Source: Propionibacteriaceae bacterium (GTDB taxonomy: Bacteria > Actinomycetota > Actinomycetes > Propionibacteriales > Propionibacteriaceae). Taken from it: 12,008 bases of DNA. Position 1 is the first letter of the stretch. Each line of letters begins with the position of its first letter. Below the pieces are notes generated by a model. It worked only from the letters and a program-made list of their open reading frames with translations. It was not told the origin of the DNA and ran no database searches. This document shows, piece after piece, positions 153-11,779 of the stretch. The stretch spans positions 1-12,008 of the forward strand of contig JAUNRO010000067.1 in NCBI GenBank assembly GCA_030544185.1, in the 5' to 3' direction. The position numbers and the translations under genes were made by a program.

Positions 153-1496
153 TCACCGCAGCACGGTGATGTGCACGTGATCTCGATGGTTGGCGGTGAC
201 GGAGCCGCGGTCGGCCATGAAGCGCCAGCCTTCGCGGGAGCGGGCGACGGACCAGATCCGCTGGTCCCAGATCACATATTCGACCTTCAGCGCGCTCGCG
301 TTCTGCTGGGCCCAGGTGGCGACGCGGTTGCCCAGGCCGGAGTTCGTATAGACCATGATGTCCAGCGCCCGGCCAGACGGGTGATCGGGCAGCGGATCGG
401 GGCGAACGCCATAGATGGTGCGCGCCTCCGGGAACTGCTGCTGGATCGCCGCGAGCAGCGCGGTCGCGTTCGGGGTCAGCCCGGGCAGGGTCTGGGTGTT
501 CTGGGTGGGCAGGGTGTTGCTGAGGTATTGCGCGGTGACCCAGCGCACGGTCCCGTTCCAGACGACCTCGGCGCGGCCGTTCTGCTGGCGGCCGGTGACC
601 TGGAGGGCGGAGCCGGTGGGCGCGACGCCGTATTGCGGGGCGCCGTCCGCCGCCGAGCCGCGCAGCGCGAGACCGGTGGTCGCATAGCGGGTCCCGACTG
701 TGGGCGGCAGTGTGGATGCGGGCGGGCGGGGCACGTTGGCCGAGCCCGAGATATAGAGGCTGTTCACCCACGCGAGCCGGCCGTCGTGGATGATCTGGGT
801 GCGCCCGTTCTCGGTGACGCCGGTGAGCCGCAGGGTCGAGCCGGAGGGGACGTTGGTGATGACGTCAAAGTCGGAGCCGGAGGTGGTGCGGACCATCAAT
901 TCGGCGGTGGCGGTCGCGGTGCTCTGCACCGGCGGCAGGCCGGGGCCGGCCGGAGTCGGTGCGGTCGGGCGAGCCTGGCTCAGGTAGCGCGTGGAGACCC
1001 AGCGCAGGGAGCCCCCGTGCACGATCTGGGAATAGCCGTTCGCCGTCACCCCGGTCGTCTCGACGGCCGTCCCGCGGGCCAGGACGGTCACGACCCGATA
1101 GGTGAGAGCGGCGCCGGTGCGGACGTTGAGGGCGGCGGTGGTGTAGGCGGAGCCGCGCTCGGCCGGTGGGGCCGAGTGGGGCGTGTTGCCGACGCCGACG
1201 GCGTTCAGGTAGGCATCCGATACCCAGCCTTGGCGCCCGCGGAAGGTGATCGGCATCCAGCCGTTGCGGGCGGGGCCGGTCGAGTCGATCCGGGTGCCGG
1301 TGGGTAGCGCGCCGATGATGCCGTGGTTCAGGCCAGGTCCGGAGCGGACGTTCAGGCCTGCGCTCGCGCGGACCGTGAACGGGTCGGCGGTGGCAGCGGC
1401 GGAGTAGGCCACACTGGCCACGGCTCCGAAGGTGGTGATCATCACAGCGGCCGCGCCCAAGGCGGTCGCCGAGCGCGCACGGCGTAGGAACTTCAC
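153..1496 (-). CDS. secreted protein with four SH3-like repeats and a C-terminal LAS-type metallopeptidase-like domain
   Basis: Predicted 447-residue exported cell-wall protein, probably a peptidoglycan hydrolase. The GTG start at 1496 was chosen over an upstream in-frame ATG (1769) because AAAGGGGAAG sits 5 bases before it and a signal peptide begins there: KFLRRARS, then a hydrophobic core to about residue 35, with likely cleavage near the ATA/DP boundary. Four SH3b-type repeats follow at about 40-98, 117-173, 194-250 and 270-327, each with an LNVR-like start and a WV...YL end, linked by Pro/Thr-rich stretches. The C-terminal domain (about 340-447) has H372-P-S-G-R-A-L-D379, the HxxGxAxD metal-binding motif of LAS peptidases (M15, M74), and H437-R-D-H440-V-H442. 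The HxxHxH arrangement resembles MepA (M74) more than the ExxHxH of VanX/VanY. SH3b repeats usually tether hydrolases to the wall. The exact bond cut is not deducible. Confidence 0.85.
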   Translation of the reverse strand: MKFLRRARSATALGAAAVMITTFGAVASVAYSAAATADPFTVRASAGLNVRSGPGLNHGIIGALPTGTRIDSTGPARNGWMPITFRGRQGWVSDAYLNAVGVGNTPHSAPPAERGSAYTTAALNVRTGAALTYRVVTVLARGTAVETTGVTANGYSQIVHGGSLRWVSTRYLSQARPTAPTPAGPGLPPVQSTATATAELMVRTTSGSDFDVITNVPSGSTLRLTGVTENGRTQIIHDGRLAWVNSLYISGSANVPRPPASTLPPTVGTRYATTGLALRGSAADGAPQYGVAPTGSALQVTGRQQNGRAEVVWNGTVRWVTAQYLSNTLPTQNTQTLPGLTPNATALLAAIQQQFPEARTIYGVRPDPLPDHPSGRALDIMVYTNSGLGNRVATWAQQNASALKVEYVIWDQRIWSVARSREGWRFMADRGSVTANHRDHVHITVLR

Positions 1497-1499
1497 AGT

Positions 1500-1509
1500 C
1501 TTCCCCTTT
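1500..1509 (-). promoter_or_regulatory. ribosome binding site fixing the start of the SH3 protein
   Basis: Minus-strand AAAGGGGAAG, with GGGGA at 1502-1506 and 5 bases to the GTG at 1494-1496. It supports the GTG start immediately before the signal peptide and excludes the 91-residue upstream extension, which has no signal-peptide or domain character. Confidence 0.7.
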
Positions 1510-1596
1510 GGCGGCGGGTGCCACCGGTCGTGGTCGACGGGCGGCCAGGGCCACCCGATTCCTTGTGTGCCCGGCCGCGCACGGCCGAGCGTCACC

Positions 1597-1678
1597 CGCT
1601 CCCCAACGAGCGACAACGTGCCCAGCCGCTTCCCAACGCCTGGGTACGCCCCCTGTGGCATCCCGGCCGCTTCCCAAC
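1597..1678. repeat. three phased direct repeats upstream of the SH3 protein gene
   Basis: Three copies of an 11-bp element lie at 1597-1607 (CGCTCCCCAAC, one mismatch), 1627-1637 and 1668-1678 (both CGCTTCCCAAC). On the minus strand the element reads GTTGGGAAGCG. Copy-to-copy distances are 30 and 41 bp, close to three and four helical turns, so the copies would lie on one face of the DNA. They sit 100-180 bp upstream of the GTG start, inside the 339-bp divergent gap. They could be regulator binding sites or repeated elements of a leader RNA. No known regulator is recognised. Confidence 0.55.
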
Positions 1679-1708
1679 AACCGTCACACCAGACTCGGGG
1701 CTCACTGG

Positions 1709-1738
1709 AATCTAATCGTGACTCAATCGCAACTGCAA
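1709..1738 (-). promoter_or_regulatory. candidate promoter for the SH3 protein gene
   Basis: On the minus strand, TTGCAG (1733-1738) and TAGATT (1709-1714) are separated by 18 bases, a fair match to housekeeping sigma elements within the most AT-rich part of the gap. If used, the transcript would have a leader of about 200 bases containing the three repeats. This is inference from pattern only. Confidence 0.3.
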
Positions 1739-1823
1739 TCGCGTGGAGTCTTTTCTGACCCACTGGCAACAGGACACGCCGCGGGCGGGGAGAAAATCAC
1801 AAGGGCGTAGTTCGGAGGTCGGC

Positions 1824-1835: not shown

Positions 1836-2189
1836 ATGGCCGTCGACATGACACCCGCCGAGTTCGACGAGCTCGTCACCGAAGCGCTGGACACGGTGCC
1901 CGACGAGCTTCTCGATATGGTCGAGAATTGCGTTGTCCTCGTGGAGCCAGAGGCCCCGGAGAACTACCCCCACGCGCTCGGACTGTATGAAGGAATCCCT
2001 TTGACAGAAAGGAATTCTTACTATTCGATGGCGCTGCCCGATCGCATCTTCATCTTCCGCAACCCGATCCTGCGGATGTGTCGATCCAGGGAGCAGGCGG
2101 TGCGTGAGGTGCGCATCACGGTGGTGCACGAGATCGCCCACCACTTCGGGATCGACGACGACCGGCTGCACGAACTCGGCTATGGCTGA
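1836..2189 (+). CDS. small zincin-type metalloprotease family protein (DUF1025-like)
   Basis: A 117-residue cytosolic protein of the short 'metallopeptidase family protein' / zincin-like group that is widespread in actinobacteria. It begins with the typical helix FDELVTEALDTVPDELL (10-26), continues through a beta-rich middle (NCVVLVEP, IFIFRNPILR), and ends with H98-E-I-A-H102-H-F-G-I-D-D, the HExxH zinc motif followed by a conserved acidic stretch and RLHELGYG. Length and motif order match the family. No signal peptide or membrane segment is present. Substrate and physiological role are unknown for the family. A second in-frame ATG at codon 5 is possible, but the first fits the leaderless -10 element. 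It is transcribed divergently from the SH3 protein gene and convergently with the GroEL-apical-like gene, so it is probably monocistronic. Confidence 0.85.
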   Translation: MAVDMTPAEFDELVTEALDTVPDELLDMVENCVVLVEPEAPENYPHALGLYEGIPLTERNSYYSMALPDRIFIFRNPILRMCRSREQAVREVRITVVHEIAHHFGIDDDRLHELGYG

Positions 2190-2258: not shown

Positions 2259-2921
2259 TTATTGGGTCACGACCCAGGTCTGCGCCGTCGAACTGACCCA
2301 TGTCCGGGCCGTTCCAATCGCAAAGTCCGGTATCCATCCTGACTGCAATTCGGATCGCGACAAGGGCTTACTTGAGGTTGCAGCAGCGATTGCCTGGAGG
2401 GTTGCGGTGTCCGCGGTGACCGCCGCGACCACCAGCGTGCGGTAGAGGTGGTTCACCACGAGCGTCTCGCGTGTTTCGTGGTCGAAATCGGGCGCCGCGA
2501 GGACCACCGCGCTCTTGCTGCTGGCCGCGTCCTCGAGGAACGGCAGCACCTCCCGCAGCGTCTGGACCGGTTCCGCGCACACCAGCACCCGCGGGTTGTC
2601 GATCACGGCCCACCCCGTCGGGCGGTCGCTGACGAGCGAATCTGCTGCCAAGGGCGCGCCGAGTGGGGGCACAGACCGGAGGCGTACGCGCAGGGCGGTG
2701 CGCTCGTCCTCGCTCAGCTCACGGTCGCCGGTGGGAGCCGGGCGGGGATCGGTGACGTACGCCGGGGTGTCCCCGGCGTAGCCCGGAATGGGGCGATCAG
2801 GGGGGCGGGTGAGCTGTTCGGCGCGACGCCGGTTGCGCTCGCGGTCCCACAGCGCGCCGAACAGGATGACCGCGACGCCGACGGCCATCACGATGATCAG
2901 CCCGATCTGCCAGCCAGCCAT
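2259..2921 (-). CDS. membrane-anchored protein with a GroEL apical-domain-like soluble part
   Basis: A 220-residue protein. Residues 4-24 form one hydrophobic helix (start MAGWQIGLIIV), followed by the basic patch DRERNRRR, so it is probably a single-pass protein with the C-terminal part in the cytoplasm. A Pro-rich linker (about 38-68) leads to residues 85-219, which by eye follow the GroEL apical domain: PRVLVCAEPVQTLREVLPFLE against P-ILL----S-(I/V)(R/K)-LLP-LE, TLVVN identical, AAVTADTATLQAIAAAT against AVKAP...ML-DIA-LTG, and the tail ARTWVSSTAQTWVV against AR-V-V-KD-TT-V. GroEL substrate-groove residues equivalent to L234, L237, V263 and V264 are kept (L126, L129, V155, V156). The equatorial ATPase part is absent. 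GAGGGGG lies 6 bases before the ATG. Function is unknown. A role in holding or binding unfolded polypeptides at the membrane is inference. Confidence 0.75.
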   Translation of the reverse strand: MAGWQIGLIIVMAVGVAVILFGALWDRERNRRRAEQLTRPPDRPIPGYAGDTPAYVTDPRPAPTGDRELSEDERTALRVRLRSVPPLGAPLAADSLVSDRPTGWAVIDNPRVLVCAEPVQTLREVLPFLEDAASSKSAVVLAAPDFDHETRETLVVNHLYRTLVVAAVTADTATLQAIAAATSSKPLSRSELQSGWIPDFAIGTARTWVSSTAQTWVVTQ

Positions 2922-3001
2922 CCGCAGCCCCCTCGTTCACCAAGTCACCGCCATTGTTCCAGCGGTGTCCGACAATCTCGGTCTCGCGGGCAGGCCGCAA
3001 C

Positions 3002-3056: not shown

Positions 3057-3371
3057 TCACTTCTTGCCGTGCGAGAACAGCATCGTCTTGAGGGAGAGGA
3101 TCGAGGTGACGAGACCCACCCAGTTGAAGCTGGACGAAGCGTGGCTCTGGCCGCCGCACGACCCGGAGTACTGCGAGCACGAGCAGCTCTGCTGGTAGCT
3201 GCCACAGGTGCGGGTGTTGCTGCAGCTGGTGTAGCGGTAGCCGGAGCTGGAGCACGAGCCGGAGCCGTAGTAGCCACCGGTCGAGGCATACGGCGCGGCC
3301 ATCGCCACCGGCGCGCTGAAGGTCAGCAGAGCGGCGGCACCAGCAACGGAAGCGACAATTTTACGCGACAT
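3057..3371 (-). CDS. small secreted six-cysteine Ser/Gly/Tyr-rich protein
   Basis: A 104-residue protein of no family I recognise. It has a clear Sec signal peptide: MSRKIV, a hydrophobic core, and likely cleavage after PVAMA at residue 25. The mature part begins with a Ser/Gly/Tyr-rich, charge-poor segment carrying six cysteines at 40, 50, 56, 63, 65 and 72 (spacing C-x9-C-x5-C-x6-C-x-C-x6-C), enough for three disulfides. It ends with a hydrophobic segment WVGLVTSILSLKTMLF (84-99) and basic tail SHGKK, which could be a membrane-inserting or amphipathic helix. AGGAG lies 5 bases before the ATG. The gene has its own candidate promoter and a strong terminator, so it is a single-gene transcript. 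It could be a surface structural protein, an envelope-stress protein or a secreted antimicrobial-like peptide; the sequence does not decide between them. Confidence 0.7.
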   Translation of the reverse strand: MSRKIVASVAGAAALLTFSAPVAMAAPYASTGGYYGSGSCSSSGYRYTSCSNTRTCGSYQQSCSCSQYSGSCGGQSHASSSFNWVGLVTSILSLKTMLFSHGKK

Positions 3372-3823: not shown

Positions 3824-3881
3824 GGAGTTCCAATGGCAGGAATAGGTGAAATCTGCGCGTCCCCTTGGCACGCCGACTGGG

Positions 3882-3955
3882 TGCCCCCAGTGGGACTCGA
3901 ACCCACGACCCGCGGATTAAAAGTCCGCTGCTCTAACCAACTGAGCTATAGGGGC
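3882..3955 (-). tRNA. tRNA-Lys (anticodon UUU)
   Basis: A complete 74-base cloverleaf on the minus strand: acceptor GCCCCTA pairs with TGGGGGC (one G-U), the D-arm is GCTC-AGTTGGTTA-GAGC, the anticodon stem GCGGA/TCCGC encloses loop CTTTTAA with anticodon TTT, the variable loop is GGGTC, and the T-arm is GTGGG-TTCGAGT-CCCAC. The discriminator is A and no CCA is encoded, as is usual in actinobacteria. It decodes AAA (and AAG by wobble), the rarer Lys codon in a genome of this GC content. Confidence 0.97.
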
Positions 3956-3967: not shown

Positions 3968-4065
3968 GCTGAACCGGCCTCCCGGCGCTCCTCATGGAAC
4001 CGCCGCGCCGACGGGATGGCCCTTGCTGGCCGCCGTTCGGCCTGAGCCTGCCCCACCAGGGAAAT

Positions 4066-4081
4066 CCGGCGCTCGCGCCGG
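4066..4081. repeat. GC hairpin in the divergent tRNA-Lys/operon gap
   Basis: CCGGCG-CTCG-CGCCGG is a perfect 6-bp inverted repeat with a CTCG loop. It sits between two divergent transcription units (tRNA-Lys and the glycosyltransferase operon), where an operator or insulating terminator would be plausible. A weaker inverted repeat CATGA-N8-TCATG lies at about 4092-4109. Confidence 0.35.
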
Positions 4082-4132
4082 CCCTCGGTCACATGAAGAT
4101 CTCCTCATGTCCACGTCAGATTTACCTCACGT

Positions 4133-4138
4133 TAACCT
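4133..4138 (+). promoter_or_regulatory. candidate -10 of the glycosyltransferase/exporter operon
   Basis: TAACCT (TANNNT type) in the AT-richer segment just upstream of the first operon gene. Transcription would start around 4145, leaving a leader of only about 8 bases before the ATG at 4153. That fits the absence of any Shine-Dalgarno sequence there. No convincing -35 box is visible. Confidence 0.3.
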
Positions 4139-4152
4139 TGCACTCTCGTTCC

Positions 4153-5358
4153 ATGACGCGATCCCGCCGCCCCCGCATCGCCCTCTATGGACACGACACC
4201 CAAGGCCTGGGCCACCTGCGCCGCAACCTGGTGCTGTCCACCGCCTTTGCCTCGGACCTCCCGGAGGGCCTCGGCGCGGAGGTGCTCCTGCTCACGGGGG
4301 CGAGCGAGGTCGGCATGTTCCCGCGGCCCGAGGGCGTCGACGCGCTCGTGCTGCCGGGCGTTCGCAAGGATGATCGCGGCCGGTACGCCCCGCGTTCCCT
4401 GCGGGGGCGGCTCAGCGACCTCGTCGGTTTCCGGGCCTCGATGATCACGGCGGCGCTGGATGCGTTCCGGCCGCACCTGCTGGTGGTCGACAAGACCCCG
4501 CGCGGGTTCGGCGGGGAGCTGGAGCAGGCGCTCCGCCTGGTGCGCGAGCGTGGGACGCACACGGTGCTCGGCTTGCGCGATGTGCTCGACGATCCCGCCG
4601 TCGCTCGGGACCAATGGCTCACCGATGCAGCCGATGTTGCCGTCCGGAACCGCTATGACGAGGTCTGGGTCTATGGCGACCCCGTCATTCACGATCTGAC
4701 AACCGCCACGGGAATGGCCCCGGACGTCGCCGCGCGGACCCACCATCTCGGCTATCTCTCCGCCGACCGCATCTCTGAAACCGAACGCGCGCACCGGCCC
4801 GCCACCGACGGCCGCGACTATGTCCTGGTCATGGTCGGCGGCGGCCAGGACGGCGCTCAGCTCTCCCGGTTCGCGGCCCGGATGATCCCGCCGCCCGGGA
4901 TGGAGCTGATCGTGCTGACGGGTCCGCAGCTGGCGGAGTCGGAGGTGCGCCGGGTGCGCCGCGCCGCGGCCGGGCGTCCCGGAGTGCAGGTCATGCGGTT
5001 CAGCCGGCACGGCGCAGCCTGGCTCGCCGGTGCCCGCGCCGTCGTCACGATGGGCGGCGCCAACACCGTTGCCGAGATCCTCGACACCGAGGTCCCCGCC
5101 CTGGTCGTCCCGCGCACCACCCCGCGCGCCGAACAGCTCGTCCGGGCCGAGGCGCTGGCCGAACACGGGCATCTGTCGTTCATGCTGCCCCAGGACATCA
5201 CCACCGAAGCTCTGCAGGAGTGGGTCCACCAGGCCGTTGGCACCCACGTGGACCGCAGCCGCCTCGACCGCGGCGGCATCGCTGCCGCCACCGAGCGCGC
5301 CCGGCACCTCCTCCTCGACCGCATCTCCACTGACACCAGGAGCTCCCATGTCGCCTGA
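4153..5358 (+). CDS. COG4671-like GT-B glycosyltransferase (MurG-related fold)
   Basis: A 401-residue cytosolic glycosyltransferase, first gene of the operon. The ATG at 4153 was chosen because the conserved N-terminus begins there (RIALYGHDTQGLGHLRRN, residues 8-25), typical of the 'predicted glycosyltransferase' COG4671 group. The 53 residues upstream in frame look non-coding. The N-terminal Rossmann-like half (about 8-210) leads to a C-terminal donor-binding half: VMVGGGQDGAQL (226-237), then GGANTVAEIL (301-310) and VPRTTPRAEQLVRAEAL (319-335), which resemble the nucleotide-sugar-binding loops of MurG-type enzymes. No Shine-Dalgarno sequence precedes the start, so initiation may be near-leaderless. 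The frame overlaps the next gene by 11 bases. Donor and acceptor sugars cannot be read from the sequence. Confidence 0.85.
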   Translation: MTRSRRPRIALYGHDTQGLGHLRRNLVLSTAFASDLPEGLGAEVLLLTGASEVGMFPRPEGVDALVLPGVRKDDRGRYAPRSLRGRLSDLVGFRASMITAALDAFRPHLLVVDKTPRGFGGELEQALRLVRERGTHTVLGLRDVLDDPAVARDQWLTDAADVAVRNRYDEVWVYGDPVIHDLTTATGMAPDVAARTHHLGYLSADRISETERAHRPATDGRDYVLVMVGGGQDGAQLSRFAARMIPPPGMELIVLTGPQLAESEVRRVRRAAAGRPGVQVMRFSRHGAAWLAGARAVVTMGGANTVAEILDTEVPALVVPRTTPRAEQLVRAEALAEHGHLSFMLPQDITTEALQEWVHQAVGTHVDRSRLDRGGIAAATERARHLLLDRISTDTRSSHVA

Positions 5359-7792
5359 GACCACCCCCCGACGCATCGGCTATGTAGTGAAGTGCTATCC
5401 CCGGTTCTCCGAAACGTTCATCGTCCGCGAGGTCCTCGCTCGCGAGGCGGCCGGTGACGACATCACGATCGCGGCGCTGCGGACCACGACCGATACGCGG
5501 TTCCACGCCCTGTTGGCGCGCGTGCAGGCGCCGGTCAGCTGGATGCCTGTGGAGAGCCGTGGCTCCGGGCGGCTGTGGGACGCTATCGCGCGGCTCCGCC
5601 AGCTTCGCCGCGATGCCGGTCGCGGGCCCATCGAGCCCTTGGCGCTCGACGCGCTCTTCGACGAGGAGTCCGCCGTCGCGGCGCAGGCCGTCCACCTGGC
5701 CGCCTGGGCCCTGGAAAACGACCGGGAACATCTGCACGCACACTTCGCCTCGATCTCCGGGCGCACCACCCGGGTCGCCGCCAAGCTCGCCGGGTTGACC
5801 TGGACTCTCACCGCCCATGCGAAGGACATCTTCCACGAGAGCAACGACCCCGTCCGGCTGCGGGCGGTCCTGACCGATGCCGATGCGGTCGTCGCGGTCA
5901 GCGACATGACCGCCGACTGGATTCGCAACCTCGCCCCGGCGGCCCGGGTCGAGCGGATCTACAACGGCATGGACCTCGACGAGCTTCGCTATACCGCCCC
6001 CGTCGAGCGCCCCGCCCGCATCGTCGGAGTCGGTCGGCTGGTCGCCAAGAAGGGCTGGCCCGACTTCCTCACTGCGGTCGCGAGGCTGCGCGCCGACGGG
6101 CTCGACGTCACCGCCGACATCGCCGGTTCCGGTCCGCTCCAAGCCGGGCTGCGCCAACTCTGCACCGAGCTCGAGATCGATGACGCCGTCACGTGGCACG
6201 GGCCGATGCCCCAGCACGAGGTCATCGAGATGGTCCGGTCCGCGGGCGCCTTCGCAGCCCCGTGCGTCATTGCCGACGACGGTGACCGGGATGGGCTGCC
6301 GACGGTGCTGCTGGAGTCGATGGCGTTGGGCACGCCGGTGGTCGGCACCCCGGTCGCCGGCATCCCCGAGGCGGTCGTGCACGACCAGACCGGGCTCATC
6401 ATCGACGAGCACGATCCCGACGCGCTGGCCGCAGCCCTGAAGCGGCTGCTGACTGACGCCGAGCTCCGCGTACGCCTCGCCGAAGCCGGCCGCGCCCACA
6501 TCGAACGCCACTTCGACATGATCGACCAGGCCCGCCAGCTGCGGGCGTTGACCGAGTCCGTGCGTCCCGCGCCGCACACCGCGCACGGGACCGGAGCCGA
6601 GGTCATCTATGTCGTGACCGATCCCGGCATCCCGGCGTTCGGTCGCAAGGGCGGCTCCGCCCATGTCCAGGAGGTCCTGCACCAGCTCGTCCGGCGCTCG
6701 CGCAAGGTCACCCTCATCGCCGCCCGGCTCGGCGGGCCCGTCCCGCCCGGGCTCGAGAACATCGCCACGATCGAGCTCGGCCGGCCGAAGGCGAGCTCCC
6801 CGGAGGCGGCGGAACGAGCGCTGCAGGCGCTGGACCGCCAGGCCGCCGGCATCGTCACCGGGCTCGTCGCGGCCGCCCGTGCCGCCCGCCCCGCCGACCC
6901 CGCGCCGCTGGTCTATCAGCGTTATGGCCTGTGGAGCGCCGAGGTCCTCGAGGGTGCCCGTGCCGCCGGGGCCCGCACCGTCCTGGAGATCAACGCGCCC
7001 CTCATCGAGGAGCAGCGCACCCACCGCGCCCTCATCGACCATGCCACCGCGACCGACCTGACCCGCCGTGCGGTGCGCGCCGCGGATCTGGCGTACGCCG
7101 TCAGCGGCCCCGTCGCCCGGTGGGCCGAGGAAGTTGCCGGGCGTGCCGTGGAGGTGATCGGCAACGGCGTCGACGTGGACCGGTTCAGCGGCACGGCGGG
7201 CAGCGGCGCGGAGCCACCCACGGTGGTCTTCGTCGGAACCTTCCGGCCGTGGCACGCCCCGGACCTGTTGGTGGCGGCCGCCGCAGAGCTGCAGCGGCGC
7301 GCCACCCCGATCCGGCTCCTCCTCGTCGGCGACGGCCCGAACCTCACCGACACGATCGCCGCCGCCCAGGCGGCCGGGGTCGAGGTCGAGGCGACCGGAC
7401 TCGTCGAGCACGAGGCCGTCCCGGCGCTGCTGGCCCGCGCGGACATCGCGTGCGCGCCCTACCCGACCGGCGAGGCGTACTTCTCCCCGCTCAAACTCAT
7501 CGAGTATCTCGGCGCCGGCCTGCCGGCCGTCGCCTCCGCGATCGCCGACCTGCCCGACCTGCTCGGTCCGGACGAGGCGATCCTGACCCCACCCGGGGAC
7601 CTCGACGCGCTCGTCGAGGCACTGGGGTTGCTCGTGAGCGATCCGGACCACCGGCGCGCGATCGGCCGGGGTGCCCGCGCCGCCGCGGTCACCCGCTTCA
7701 CCTGGTCCGCGGTCGTCGGGCGCATGCTGGACTGCCTGGATGCCACCGAATCCGCTGCGGAGGAGGTTGCTGAGGAGGTCGCTGTCGGATGA
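5348..7792 (+). CDS. double-domain fusion of two GT4-type glycosyltransferases
   Basis: An 814-residue protein made of two complete GT-B enzymes in tandem; single GT4 proteins are usually 370-420 residues. The first (about 9-405) starts IGYVVKCYPRFSETFIVREVL, the N-terminus typical of exopolysaccharide GT4 enzymes, has VGRLVAKKGWPDFL (227-240), and carries the donor-site motif DGLPTVLLESMALGTPVV (315-332). The second (about 418-795) has a GRKGGSAHVQEV glycine loop (432-443), FVGTFRPWHAPDLL (628-641) and FSPLKLIEYLGAGLPAV (712-728). A short linker joins them at about 405-418. The start ATG lies inside the previous gene, with AGGAG 5 bases before it. The frame ends in a 4-base ATGA overlap with the ABC exporter gene. 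The fusion probably adds two consecutive sugars to the same acceptor; this is inferred from the architecture. Confidence 0.9.
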   Translation: MSPETTPRRIGYVVKCYPRFSETFIVREVLAREAAGDDITIAALRTTTDTRFHALLARVQAPVSWMPVESRGSGRLWDAIARLRQLRRDAGRGPIEPLALDALFDEESAVAAQAVHLAAWALENDREHLHAHFASISGRTTRVAAKLAGLTWTLTAHAKDIFHESNDPVRLRAVLTDADAVVAVSDMTADWIRNLAPAARVERIYNGMDLDELRYTAPVERPARIVGVGRLVAKKGWPDFLTAVARLRADGLDVTADIAGSGPLQAGLRQLCTELEIDDAVTWHGPMPQHEVIEMVRSAGAFAAPCVIADDGDRDGLPTVLLESMALGTPVVGTPVAGIPEAVVHDQTGLIIDEHDPDALAAALKRLLTDAELRVRLAEAGRAHIERHFDMIDQARQLRALTESVRPAPHTAHGTGAEVIYVVTDPGIPAFGRKGGSAHVQEVLHQLVRRSRKVTLIAARLGGPVPPGLENIATIELGRPKASSPEAAERALQALDRQAAGIVTGLVAAARAARPADPAPLVYQRYGLWSAEVLEGARAAGARTVLEINAPLIEEQRTHRALIDHATATDLTRRAVRAADLAYAVSGPVARWAEEVAGRAVEVIGNGVDVDRFSGTAGSGAEPPTVVFVGTFRPWHAPDLLVAAAAELQRRATPIRLLLVGDGPNLTDTIAAAQAAGVEVEATGLVEHEAVPALLARADIACAPYPTGEAYFSPLKLIEYLGAGLPAVASAIADLPDLLGPDEAILTPPGDLDALVEALGLLVSDPDHRRAIGRGARAAAVTRFTWSAVVGRMLDCLDATESAAEEVAEEVAVG
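7760..7783 (+). repeat. 12-bp tandem duplication containing the exporter's ribosome binding site
   Basis: GAGGAGGTTGCT (7760-7771) is followed directly by GAGGAGGTCGCT (7772-7783), with one mismatch. It encodes EEVAEEVA at the C-terminus of the glycosyltransferase fusion and places two AGGAGGT sequences ahead of the exporter start at 7789. The second lies 10 bases from the ATG. Confidence 0.7.
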
Positions 7793-9576
7793 GCCGCTCA
7801 AAGACCAAGCTCCGGGCCACGCCCCTGCGGCGTACGCTCGGAATTCTCCGCCCGCACCTAAAGGGCTCGGGCCGGCTCGCCGCGCTCGGTGTCCTCGCCG
7901 TGCTGGCCGAGGTCGCCGCCCGACTGCTCGAACCCTGGCCGGTCAGCTGGGTGATCGATGGCGTGCTGCCGGCGGTCGTCGGCCAGCCGATCCCTGGCGG
8001 CGTTCCGCGCCTGCTCATCGGCGCCGGCGTCGCCGTGGTGCTCGTCGCCGCGCTGCGGGCCACCGCGGCCTATCTGTCCACGGTCGCATTCGCCAACGTC
8101 GGCGCCCAGGTGACGACCCGGCTCCGCGCCCACGTTCACGAGCGGCTGCTCGGGGCCAACCTGGGCTTCCACGACCGGATGCGCTCCGGCGACCTCGTCA
8201 CGCGGGTGGTCTCCGACGTCGGCCGCGTCCAGGAGGCCGGCGTCACCGCGGGTCTGCCGCTCATGGCGAACGTCCTCACCGTGATCGGCATGCTCGTCGT
8301 GGTCGTGATCCTGGACCCGGTCCTGGCGCTTGTCGTCGTCGGCGTCCTCCCGCTCATCCTCCTCTCCGGACGCTTCGCCGGCTCGCGGATCACCACGGCC
8401 TCCCGCGCCCAGCGCAAACGCGAGGGCGAGCTCGCCGGCGACGCCGGTGAGGCCTTCGCCGCGGTGCAGACCATCCAGAGCTATGACCTCAGCTCCCACC
8501 TCGGCGCCCGATTCGCCCAGGCCAACGTGAAAGGACTCAAGGACGGGGTCAAGGCCAAGCGGCTCTCCGCCGGGCTCGAACGCCGCACGGACCTGCTCGT
8601 CGGGATCGCCACGGGCGCAGTGCTCGCCATCGGCGGCTGGCGCGTCGTCGTCGGCGCGATCTCCCCGGGCGAGCTCGTGGTGTTCATCACCTATCTCAAG
8701 ACGACCTTCAAGCCGCTGCGCGACCTCGCCAAACACACCGGTCGCATCGCCCGCGCCGCAGCCTCCGGTGAACGCATCGCCGACACCCTCGACCAGGCCA
8801 TCCCCGTCGAGGACCGCTCCTGGGCACGCCCGTTGCCTCCGGTGCGCCGCGGCCAGCCCGCCGGCGCGGTGGACCTGCGCGGGGTGACGTTCGGTTATGG
8901 GAGTACGCCGGTGCTGCGCGGGGCCGAGTTGCACGTCCGGGCGGGGGAGCGGGTCGCGATCGTGGGGCCGAGCGGCTCCGGCAAGTCGACCCTGCTCAAC
9001 CTCTTGCTGAGGTTCCATCAGCCCCGCCACGGCATCGTGGCGATCGACGGTCACGACGTGCAGGACCTGACGTTGGCCTCGGTGCGCGAGGCATCCGCGG
9101 TCGTCCTGCAGGACTCCGCTATCTTCGCGGGCGACCTCGCCGAGAACGTCCGCCTCGGGCGCCTCGATGCCACCGACGAGGAGATCGAGTGGGCCCTGCG
9201 GGCGGCGGCGCTCGGGTCACTGGTCGACAGCTCCGAGCTGGGGATCCATCGGCTTGTCTCGGAGAAGGGGTCGACATTGTCCGGCGGCCAGCGCCAGCGG
9301 CTCGCGATCGCCCGCGCATTGCTGCGCAACCCGCGGCTGGTCCTGCTCGACGAGCCCACGACCGGACTCGACGAGGCGAGCCGCCAGGAGGTGATCGCGG
9401 CCCTGCGCCGGCTGTCGGCGGGACGGACCACGATTCTCGTCACCCATGACGAGGACCTGCTCGCCGGCATGGATCGCGTGATCGAGATTCGCGAGGGAAC
9501 GTTCGTCGAGCGACCGCGGAACGGTTGGGCGGTCGTCCGCAACTCCGAGCCTGCAGGAAGTGGGGCAGACGCATGA
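7789..9576 (+). CDS. ABC exporter half-transporter (membrane domain fused to ATPase)
   Basis: A 595-residue type IV (MsbA-like) ABC exporter that should work as a homodimer, since no partner half is present in the operon. The membrane domain covers about 25-325, with hydrophobic segments near 28-62, 75-100, 156-178, 179-196, 268-286 and 290-302 and the conserved cytoplasmic stretch FHDRMRSGDLVTRVVSDV (127-144). The ATPase domain (about 360-575) shows Walker A GPSGSGKST (393-401), Q-loop VVLQDSAIF (438-446), signature LSGGQ (497-501), Walker B LVLLDEPT (517-524) and H-loop VTHDED (551-556), all intact. The start overlaps the upstream stop by ATGA. Placement between glycosyltransferases and kinases suggests export of a glycolipid or other glycoconjugate. 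A peptidase domain for peptide export is absent. The substrate is not identifiable from sequence. Confidence 0.93.
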   Translation: MSRSKTKLRATPLRRTLGILRPHLKGSGRLAALGVLAVLAEVAARLLEPWPVSWVIDGVLPAVVGQPIPGGVPRLLIGAGVAVVLVAALRATAAYLSTVAFANVGAQVTTRLRAHVHERLLGANLGFHDRMRSGDLVTRVVSDVGRVQEAGVTAGLPLMANVLTVIGMLVVVVILDPVLALVVVGVLPLILLSGRFAGSRITTASRAQRKREGELAGDAGEAFAAVQTIQSYDLSSHLGARFAQANVKGLKDGVKAKRLSAGLERRTDLLVGIATGAVLAIGGWRVVVGAISPGELVVFITYLKTTFKPLRDLAKHTGRIARAAASGERIADTLDQAIPVEDRSWARPLPPVRRGQPAGAVDLRGVTFGYGSTPVLRGAELHVRAGERVAIVGPSGSGKSTLLNLLLRFHQPRHGIVAIDGHDVQDLTLASVREASAVVLQDSAIFAGDLAENVRLGRLDATDEEIEWALRAAALGSLVDSSELGIHRLVSEKGSTLSGGQRQRLAIARALLRNPRLVLLDEPTTGLDEASRQEVIAALRRLSAGRTTILVTHDEDLLAGMDRVIEIREGTFVERPRNGWAVVRNSEPAGSGADA

Positions 9577-10715
9577 GCGTGACCGATGCCGATGTGATCC
9601 GTGCCCATCCCTCGCTGCCGGCGCTGGAACTGCTGCTCGACCCGGCTGCGTTGCAGGAGGCGACTGTGCGTCTTGGCGGCGGGGGCCTGCAACTGGACCG
9701 ACTGCGCCTCAAGCCGGGCGCCTCGGTGACGGCGATGCTGCGCCCGGTCTCGGGCCGGGGGCCCTGGGTCCTGGCCCGTGGACTCGCCCGCAGGCCCTGG
9801 GCGACCAAGCGGCAGAAGGATCTGCGCGCGGCCGAGGAGGCCGGACTGGCGAGCTGGGAGCTGCCGGCCGAGCGGCTGGTGCTGGTGCCGGCCGCAGCCG
9901 ACCGGCAACTGAATGGGCTGGCGGCGCTGCGGCCGGACACCGGTTGTGCAGTGCCGGCGGTCTATGGCCGCAAGCCCTGGCGGGTGCGTGGCGGCCGCAT
10001 GCCGGCCCTGGCCGCGGCCCGAGCAGGGCGCACGGGCAACGGCTCCCGCGCCCTGCCCGCCGACGCCGACGAGATGATGACCGTTCGCACGCTCTCGCAC
10101 AATCCCGCTCGTCGCTGGGTCGGGCTGGCCGAGGCGGGGGAGACCCGGCGCGTGCTGCGGCTGCACAGCGACCGGCCGGCCGAACAGCTGTTGTGGGTGC
10201 CGGGCCGCGACTGGATGCCGGGTGACCCGCTGCCTGTCCTGCTCGCGGACCCGGCGCACGTCCACATCGACGCGCTCCTGGGCGATACCGAGCTTCCGGC
10301 CGCGCTCGGACCTGCCGTCGACGGGCTGCGCATGATCCACCGGCCGTGGGGAGAACGGGCCGCCGCTGTGGTGGCGGCCATTGCGGACCGGCTGGCGCGA
10401 GTCCCGCAGGAGCCGGCGCACGGCGACCTCACCCCCGACCAGGTCGTGGTCGGTGCCGACGGCACCACCGTCGTCGACTGGGATCGGGCGGGCCGCTGGC
10501 CGGCCGGATGGGACGCCGCCACCTGGACCGCCGGCATGATCGTGGCCGGTTGGCACCCGGCTGGGTCCTGCGCGGTCCCGGACCTGAGCGTTGAGCCGGT
10601 GGTGCTGGCCGCCGCTGCGATCATGCGCGGGTCGGAGCCGTTCCGCCGGCGGGAACCGGACTGGGCCGGCCGGATCGAGGCCCTGCTCGCGCACGCCGAG
10701 CTGGTGCAGTCGTGA
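9573..10715 (+). CDS. APH-fold phosphotransferase, first of a pair
   Basis: A 380-residue cytosolic kinase-like protein of the aminoglycoside phosphotransferase/choline kinase fold. The start overlaps the exporter stop by ATGA; AGGAAG lies 12 bases before it. The N-lobe contains LDRLRLKPGASVTAML (41-56), similar to the 'KPGRR' strand seen in many actinobacterial APH-like proteins. The C-lobe has the catalytic loop H283-G-D285-L-T-P-D-Q290 and the metal site V-V-D302-W-D304. The usual Asn of the HGDxxxxN loop is Gln here. Overall similarity to resistance enzymes is low, and in this context a sugar, polyol or glycolipid is a likelier phosphate acceptor than an antibiotic. This is inference from the neighbours. 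A short segment around 140-165 rich in Ala/Arg/Gly looks like a loop insertion. Confidence 0.75.
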   Translation: MSVTDADVIRAHPSLPALELLLDPAALQEATVRLGGGGLQLDRLRLKPGASVTAMLRPVSGRGPWVLARGLARRPWATKRQKDLRAAEEAGLASWELPAERLVLVPAAADRQLNGLAALRPDTGCAVPAVYGRKPWRVRGGRMPALAAARAGRTGNGSRALPADADEMMTVRTLSHNPARRWVGLAEAGETRRVLRLHSDRPAEQLLWVPGRDWMPGDPLPVLLADPAHVHIDALLGDTELPAALGPAVDGLRMIHRPWGERAAAVVAAIADRLARVPQEPAHGDLTPDQVVVGADGTTVVDWDRAGRWPAGWDAATWTAGMIVAGWHPAGSCAVPDLSVEPVVLAAAAIMRGSEPFRRREPDWAGRIEALLAHAELVQS

Positions 10716-11779
10716 AGGCCGAACTGGCCCGGGCGCTGGCCACCGGGGTCAGCGTCAACGGCCAGCACTGGCGGGTGACCCGAGCCTGGCCCGCCTCCCT
10801 CGACGATTCGGCGCAGGGTTATGTGCTCGAACTCGCCGGCGCGGACGGCCGTGTCCGCGGCGCCCGGCTGCGTGGCGGCCTGGTCGAGCTCGGCTCCGAC
10901 GGTGCGCTGCCCGCGCTCGATCCGCTGATCGCCCAGGGGTGGAGCGTGGTCGCCCACCGGCTCGGCAAGCGGGCGGTCCTGCGCCGCAACGGCGCCGGGA
11001 ACTTCCGCAAGCTCGCCACCCCGAAAGCCACCAAGCGCGCCGTCGCCCGGGCCGATGCCGTCGAACGGCTGCTGGGCGCAGTGCCCGGCGTACCGCGCCC
11101 ACCCGGTCGTGTCGGCGTCGACACCACGACCGGGACGATCGACCTGGCCCCCGCCCCGGGGATCGGGCTGCGGACCCTGCTCACAGACCCCGCGACCACG
11201 AAATTGCGTGCGCGGGCGGTCGGGCGCCGCCTCGGCGACGTGCTTGCCTCCCTGGCGACCATCGAACCCGCCTCGGGGGATGTTCGCGCTGCCCGATTGC
11301 CCGAACACCGACTGACCGACGAGGTCGCCGTCCTGGAGCGCTGGATCGTATCCGCCTGCAGTCTCGCGCCGCTCTCCGCCGATGACACGCGCCGGCTGTG
11401 GCAACAATCCGATGAGGTCCTGGGCGAACTGGCGCGCGCAGGGCAGCGGCAGAAGCTCGTGCTGAGCCACCGCGATCTGCACGACGGGCAGGTCCTGGTC
11501 GCCGAGGACGGCACACTGACGCTCCTCGATTGGGATACCGCGGCGTGGGCCGAGCCGTGTCTCGACCCGGCCAACCTGCTCGCGCACTTCGACCTTCTCG
11601 CCGAGCAGCGACCGGATGCCGCCGAGCTGGTCGCTGCCGCCGCCGGCGGGCTCCACGAGAGCCTGGCCGCCGCCGGTCATCCCGCGGCGAGCGATGCCGC
11701 GCGCCTCGAGCTGTTGCGCCGCGCCAGCGCCGTTCGAATCCGTGCGGTGCATGCCTTTCGAAGTGTGCCGGACCAGTGA
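10712..11779 (+). CDS. APH-fold phosphotransferase, second of a pair
   Basis: A 355-residue protein of the same fold as its neighbour but strongly diverged from it. It begins with GTG in a GTGA overlap with the previous stop and has only a weak GAG upstream, so translation is probably coupled. The catalytic loop is H253-R-D255-L-H-D-G-Q260 and the metal site is L-L-D273-W-D275-TA, again with Gln where Asn is usual. The sequence after it (CLDPANLLAHFDLL, 283-296) matches the helix that follows the metal site in this family. The N-lobe is less canonical; FRKLATPKATKRAV (98-111) may supply the ATP-binding Lys. It is the last gene of the operon and is followed by a GC hairpin. It may phosphorylate an intermediate or the product of the three glycosyltransferase domains. 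The acceptor is unknown. Confidence 0.75.
   Translation: MKAELARALATGVSVNGQHWRVTRAWPASLDDSAQGYVLELAGADGRVRGARLRGGLVELGSDGALPALDPLIAQGWSVVAHRLGKRAVLRRNGAGNFRKLATPKATKRAVARADAVERLLGAVPGVPRPPGRVGVDTTTGTIDLAPAPGIGLRTLLTDPATTKLRARAVGRRLGDVLASLATIEPASGDVRAARLPEHRLTDEVAVLERWIVSACSLAPLSADDTRRLWQQSDEVLGELARAGQRQKLVLSHRDLHDGQVLVAEDGTLTLLDWDTAAWAEPCLDPANLLAHFDLLAEQRPDAAELVAAAAGGLHESLAAAGHPAASDAARLELLRRASAVRIRAVHAFRSVPDQ

Follow-up and report, generated by a model that had tools for sequence, protein, structure and literature searches.

GroEL minichaperones are laboratory fragments of the chaperonin GroEL, described in PMC9138447 as residues 191-345, and the usefulness of an isolated apical domain inside a cell has so far been argued from such constructs. 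The nearest use of an apical-type domain outside the chaperonins that we met is the Fab1_TCP domain of PIKFYVE, which PMC2846930 describes as most similar to the apical domain of CCT3. Here we describe a gene at positions 2259..2921, on the minus strand, of a stretch of 12,008 nucleotides from a Propionibacteriaceae bacterium (contig JAUNRO010000067.1; this whole stretch is called the window). Its product is almost certainly an apical domain of the group I type that stands by itself, preceded by a predicted membrane anchor. Propionibacterium-related bacteria would carry, besides a normal GroEL, a small membrane-anchored protein built on the gripping part of GroEL, a natural, conserved and membrane-bound case that would make the minichaperone question directly testable.

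Layout, identity and distribution of the protein

Along its 220 amino acids the protein is ordered as a hydrophobic helix, a basic stretch, a proline-rich tether and a compact domain from residue 84. The gene and its parts are the following:

2259..2921, minus strand: gene for the apical-domain protein with its predicted membrane anchor, 220 amino acids, an open frame with an ATG start
2928..2934, minus strand: likely ribosome-binding sequence GAGGGGG, 6 bases 5' of the ATG, inferred from the consensus
2847..2906, minus strand: predicted transmembrane segment, residues ~6-25, from a model helix at residues 3-38 (AlphaFold2) and hydropathy
2805..2846, minus strand: basic flank, residues 26-39 (DRERNRRRAEQLTR), from the Lys/Arg count after the hydrophobic stretch
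2751..2804, minus strand: conserved tether motifs PPxRxIP and P-x-Y-[VLI]-[TS], residues 40-57, from alignment counts
2262..2672, minus strand: GroEL apical domain, residues 84-220 (E. coli GroEL ~192-335), from profile and structure matches
2517..2558, minus strand: equivalent of helix H, residues 122-135 (GroEL 230-243), containing L126 (L234) and L129 (L237), from the alignment; model helix 126-135
2442..2477, minus strand: equivalent of helix I, residues 149-160 (GroEL 257-268), containing V155 (V263) and V156 (V264), from the alignment; model helix 148-159
2451..2453, minus strand: invariant Asn157 (GroEL N265), Asn in 88 of 88 aligned members

The initial annotation had read this protein as a membrane-tethered GroEL apical homologue without the ATPase, and the profile search and the predicted fold bear it out, with the membrane helix being predicted. 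The profile search returned Cpn60/GroEL. The fold prediction gave the GroEL apical domain, model residues 83-220 superposing on residues 191-335 of PDB entries 1JON and 1DK7; the AlphaFold2 model has a mean predicted local distance difference test score of 87.4, 10-residue blocks at 90-98 from residue 71 onwards, and low confidence in the tether (residues 40-57). By profile, structure and sequence comparison alike, the alignment to E. coli GroEL is confined to ~173-335. The expected loss of the equatorial and intermediate domains also holds, as there is no convincing alignment outside the apical domain. The equatorial ATPase domain was not found in the window protein, whose 220-residue translation lacks the DGTTT motif present at position 87 in E. 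coli GroEL and in all 12 GroELs checked, and neither profile nor structure comparison gave a convincing match to the intermediate hinge domain. Also missing are the apical part beyond ~GroEL 335 and, with F281, the greater part of the 280-286 loop; F281 is reported in PMC10723157 as critical for the folding of caged substrates. GroEL 173-190 was not counted as homologous to residues ~68-83; the profile aligns the two, but residues 71-81 form a helix in the model.

Eighteen other proteins match the window protein at E<=1e-3, with identities of 40-68%, and the family is 19-30% identical to the GroELs of the structure comparison. The structure and PDB sequence matches listed for the window protein are group I, which does not by itself exclude group II. 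A viral structure library gave seven matches at E<=0.001, of 511-609 amino acids, six of them named GroEL or Hsp60 and one unnamed. The match of the window protein to NCBIfam NF038369 (GroEL3) is weak (3.5e-5), and in Pfam nothing rises above the cut-off for it; the Cpn60_TCP1 model reaches E<=0.1 in just 7 of the 55 members, with 0.003 as its best value. Matches to DUF7269, LapA_dom and DUF5632 were set aside as weak and, for the window protein, below the cut-off. The poor Pfam record would fit a chance resemblance, an assembly artefact or a pseudogene fragment of GroEL. The profile and fold matches to GroEL, the recurrent locus and the presence of this architecture in 141 of 198 genomes are decisive against this, and we consider it next to impossible.

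The membrane helix and tether were followed in an alignment of 88 members, named A3, from which one fetched member (L087) was left out, as no start that includes the membrane segment could be found close to its match. A 19-residue stretch with a mean hydropathy of at least 1.6 lies near the N terminus in all 88 rows. Lys and Arg average 0.02 before this stretch and 4.9 over the 15 residues that follow, and each of the 88 members has more of them after the stretch than before. Because basic residues follow the helix, the positive-inside rule would place the domain in the cytosol, and a single-pass protein with its N terminus out and its C terminus in is predicted. A second stretch of mean hydropathy of at least 1.6, after residue 60 in the region of the folded domain, is found in 16 of 88 members. 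Despite its poor modelling the tether is well kept: with gapped rows excluded, P41 is found in 71 of 77 members, P53 in 80 of 83, Y55 in 79 of 85, and Val, Leu or Ile at 56 in 83 of 84. Together with D26 (Asp in 87 of 88), P41, P53 and Y55 rank among the best-kept positions.

The survey of this architecture covered the 198 genomes of the family of genome G001, which we infer to be the Propionibacteriaceae; genomes without a match may be incomplete. G001 itself has a relative at 57% identity. A profile of 19 sequences matched 118 of the genomes at E<=1e-25, and the 88-sequence A3 profile found near full-length relatives in 141 at E<=1e-31. All 142 A3 matches listed start at profile position 41 or before, hence none is a GroEL (GroELs start at ~70 or later as a rule). 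Among the remaining 57 genomes the best GroEL scored 3.8e-29. Nine of these (G002, G003, G004, G005, G006, G013, G088, G103 and G133) hold family-like pieces, four have no match at all, and the rest have GroEL-like matches only, apart from a few weaker pieces. The match in G013 (C1:805724-806355) is split across different frames, from a broken gene or a sequencing error. G038 has two family copies, C93:99-761 (7.4e-77) and C71:1953-2582 (1.8e-59), from duplication or a mixed assembly.

Beyond this family, a search at the level of the order covered 391 genomes, of which 217 were new (G199-G415). Among the matches listed for the new genomes, down to E of ~1e-26, a level at which weak members could escape, none is family-like; their frames have 538-683 amino acids and start at profile position 75 or later. 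At E<=3e-28, matches were found in 10 of 394 genomes of the class, two of them to the family (G001 and G091), and in 7 of 396 of the phylum, one of them to the family (G001); the other matches in both surveys are GroEL-like frames of 447-589 amino acids. A divergent ortholog was also sought near Zincin_1, the neighbouring metallopeptidase gene described below, in 12 genomes (G199 and above): in 1.5 kb on each side of 12 of the 26 Zincin_1 sites, the family profile hit no open reading frame, even with the threshold relaxed to E<=10. The named sources of homologues are Granulicoccus, Mariniluteicoccus, Tessaracoccus and Aestuariimicrobium, all of them Propionibacteriaceae, and where the homologues are named in the sources it is as 'hypothetical protein'. 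The gene looks like an old innovation of the Propionibacteriaceae that may have distant members elsewhere.

The substrate groove and candidate functions

The groove of the 88 members was compared with that of 15 GroELs (among them L106, a frame of 444 amino acids), with Ala scored as non-polar and over the eight classical groove positions of GroEL. In the alignment the window protein is non-polar at six of the eight, and it has the equivalents of GroEL L234, L237, V263 and V264 (L126, L129, V155 and V156) that had been read from the sequence by eye. Over the 88 members the non-polar share is 100% at 264, 99% at 234, 98% at 237, 97% at 204, 88% at 199 and 78% at 259. Leu stands at 234 in 58 of 88 and at 237 in 64 of 88, and the main residues at 264 are Val (43) and Ala (38). 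Of the 88 members, 79 keep T261, 76 keep R231, a variable position in GroELs, and 17 keep R268; L262 is strongly kept. The sole invariant residues of the whole alignment are N265 and G318. Outside helices H and I, Trp stands at 323 in 75 of 88, most members have Asp at window position 191, where the window protein has Glu, G195 is nearly invariant, and the C-terminal motif DLQxG[WY]xP...LG...W is specific to the family. From these counts the groove appears to be under selection yet altered, with several central contacts kept and much of the broad-substrate apparatus of GroEL lost; the pattern speaks against a wholly dead groove and also against an unchanged general substrate groove.

The most likely mechanism, to which we give a probability of about one half, is a peptide-binding module that is tethered, works without ATP and accepts a narrowed range of ligands. 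The GroEL apical domain (~191-335) would have been separated from the ring and the ATPase, and one N-terminal helix and the conserved tether would fix it to the inner face of the cytoplasmic membrane. There the groove between helices H and I would still bind a peptide segment, through the non-polar line 234/237/264 and N265, without ATP and without a cage. The role would be that of a client-specific adaptor or holdase at the membrane, not of a general foldase, and the ligand set would be narrower than that of GroEL, given the loss of Y203, R268 and the F281 loop and, in many members, of V263. The gene would also lie outside HrcA control, unlike GroEL genes. The controlling inverted repeat of chaperone expression (CIRCE), scored with its consensus, was not found upstream of family genes, the best sites having 7-9 mismatches of 18 in 71 of 71 stretches of up to 430 bases around the start; GroEL loci, scanned whole, gave 0-3 mismatches in 14 of 14 outside E. 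coli, and 8 in E. coli. For the HspR-associated inverted repeat (HAIR), the best sites in the 71 upstream stretches have 4-7 mismatches of 14, in a scan without a positive control.

Several points weigh against such a module. Position 263 is non-polar in 60% of the members, with Glu in 22 of 88, and position 203 in 18%, with Asp or Glu in 42 of 88; according to published mutants, charge at these two positions is reportedly expected to weaken substrate binding by GroEL. The conservation of N265 could have a structural cause. Both the membrane helix and the way it points are predictions rather than observations, and no neighbour forms a clear operon with the gene, so that the context names no partner.

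The same groove could serve a general membrane-bound holdase, a natural minichaperone that would catch whatever hydrophobic segments nascent or damaged membrane and secreted proteins expose near the membrane, and that would gain avidity by clustering there. The non-polar residues at six of the eight classical positions fit this, as does the tethered geometry, which resembles that of the matrix-immobilised minichaperones used for refolding in PMC9138447. Small residues on one face of the helix (G15 in 82 of 88 members, Gly or Ala at 22 in 87 of 88) might permit the clustering, but the helix-face periodicity, taken as a signal of oligomerisation, is not significant (moment p=0.07). Positions 203, 263, 267, 268 and 270 are poorly kept, with 203 and 263 often charged; the substrate contacts named for GroEL in PMC10723157 are V264, Y203, M267, R268 and I270, with N265 in another state. 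The lack of CIRCE upstream also counts against it, and so does the narrow occurrence in the class and phylum surveys (2 of 394 and 1 of 396 genomes), which would be odd for a general need, even if weak members could escape. We regard the general holdase as possible, though rather doubtful.

If, on the other hand, the groove were dead, the apical fold would be a stable platform, with binding in a membrane complex through other surfaces, such as the C-terminal motif or the tether motif. Conserved family-specific positions outside helices H and I (G318, Trp 323, window 191, G195, P53/Y55) would suit such a scaffold, which is nevertheless unlikely: under drift one would not expect N265 to be invariant or T261, R231 and L262 of helices H and I to be so strongly kept.

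The kept positions could also point to the co-chaperonin. According to PMC3514286, GroES contacts L234, L237 and V264 of GroEL, and N265A stops the binding of GroES but not that of substrate. All four of these residues, the three mobile-loop contacts and N265, are present in the window protein, which could then be a docking site that ties GroES, or a loop resembling that of GroES, to the membrane and so tunes the level of free GroES or sites GroE folding there. The pattern is not unique to GroES, since V264 contacts substrate as well (PMC10723157), and position 264 is often Ala. Seven GroEL sites act jointly in GroES binding, and a lone site should bind GroES weakly. We think this tether quite unlikely. 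A further, speculative version, to which we would attach similarly little weight, is a membrane receptor that would cluster through the Gly-rich helix face and recognise a GroES-type (Ile-Val-Leu-like) loop, or its own P-x-Y-[VLI]-[TS] tether as a self-ligand, making it an ATP-free, switchable adaptor that links GroE or a specific client to the inner membrane.

Locus context and origin

The neighbours of the gene are the following:

1836..2189, plus strand: Zincin_1 metallopeptidase, convergent neighbour (PF06262, E=2.3e-31)
153..1769, minus strand: SH3-repeat protein, downstream neighbour (PF08239, E=1.2e-30); the true start may be inside the frame
3880..3955, minus strand: tRNA-Lys(TTT), upstream neighbour, recurrent at family loci

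The context was surveyed at 70 loci that span 3.6 kb or more, one of them being the window; many of them are short, and the counts are lower bounds. A tRNA-Lys is found in 47 of the 70 loci and, by tblastn, the SH3-repeat protein in 40 and Zincin_1 in 31; three of the SH3 proteins lie upstream on the other strand and are possibly other SH3 proteins. A survey of 22 loci found the SH3 protein in 21 and Zincin_1 in 16. With Zincin_1 nearly always convergent, no operon points to a partner. The SH3 protein of the window has four SH3_3 stretches, and its C-terminal part resembles a cell-wall enzyme domain by eye. Between the tRNA-Lys and the gene, 3057-3371 (minus strand) encodes a Ser/Gly/Tyr/Cys-rich protein of 104 amino acids with a signal-peptide-like start by eye and no Pfam match. 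The plus-strand region 3994-11779 may be a glycoconjugate cluster: it encodes a series of glycosyltransferases, of which one is GT28-like and another carries two group 1 stretches, together with an ATP-binding cassette (ABC) transporter and a phosphotransferase of the APH family. Within it, 9525-10715 gave no Pfam hit at E<=0.001.

In a tree of 46 sequences and 136 columns the family forms one clade with a support of 100 and a stem of 0.86 substitutions per site. Its neighbours are two Actinomycetota GroELs, L104 with a His-rich tail and L107 without one (support 86 and 90). With so long a branch and so short an alignment, this is only a hint of an origin beside these GroELs.

Comparison with known systems

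In the open-access literature, covered by titles and the starts of abstracts and with most subscription papers outside its scope, no natural membrane-anchored apical domain was found, although the phrase 'GroEL-like apical domain' does occur; this is weak evidence of novelty. Compared with GroEL/Cpn60, the family has a homologous apical domain with the equivalents of L234, L237, V264 and N265 kept, but lacks the equatorial and intermediate domains, the apical end after ~335, the F281 loop and CIRCE, and has a predicted membrane anchor. The chlamydial GroEL paralogues, by comparison, have models at full chaperonin length (NF038369 GroEL3 and NF038370 GroEL2, 506 and 533 positions), and have probably changed role.

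The GroEL minichaperones (PDB 1JON, 1SRV and 1DK7) resemble the family in predicted fold, in their nearly equal ends, in helices H and I and in having neither ATPase nor ring. The difference is that these are laboratory fragments, whereas the family consists of natural genes whose products combine a predicted membrane helix and a conserved tether with a groove that has changed. Fab1_TCP of the PIKFYVE/Fab1 kinases is likewise a chaperonin apical-type domain outside a chaperonin, to which the family would be a bacterial parallel. The family would also show one way in which a piece of an essential folding machine may gain a new role. Fab1_TCP, however, is of group II (CCT3-like), eukaryotic and set within a lipid kinase, whereas the family belongs to group I and has the apical domain as its only domain, preceded by a predicted transmembrane helix.
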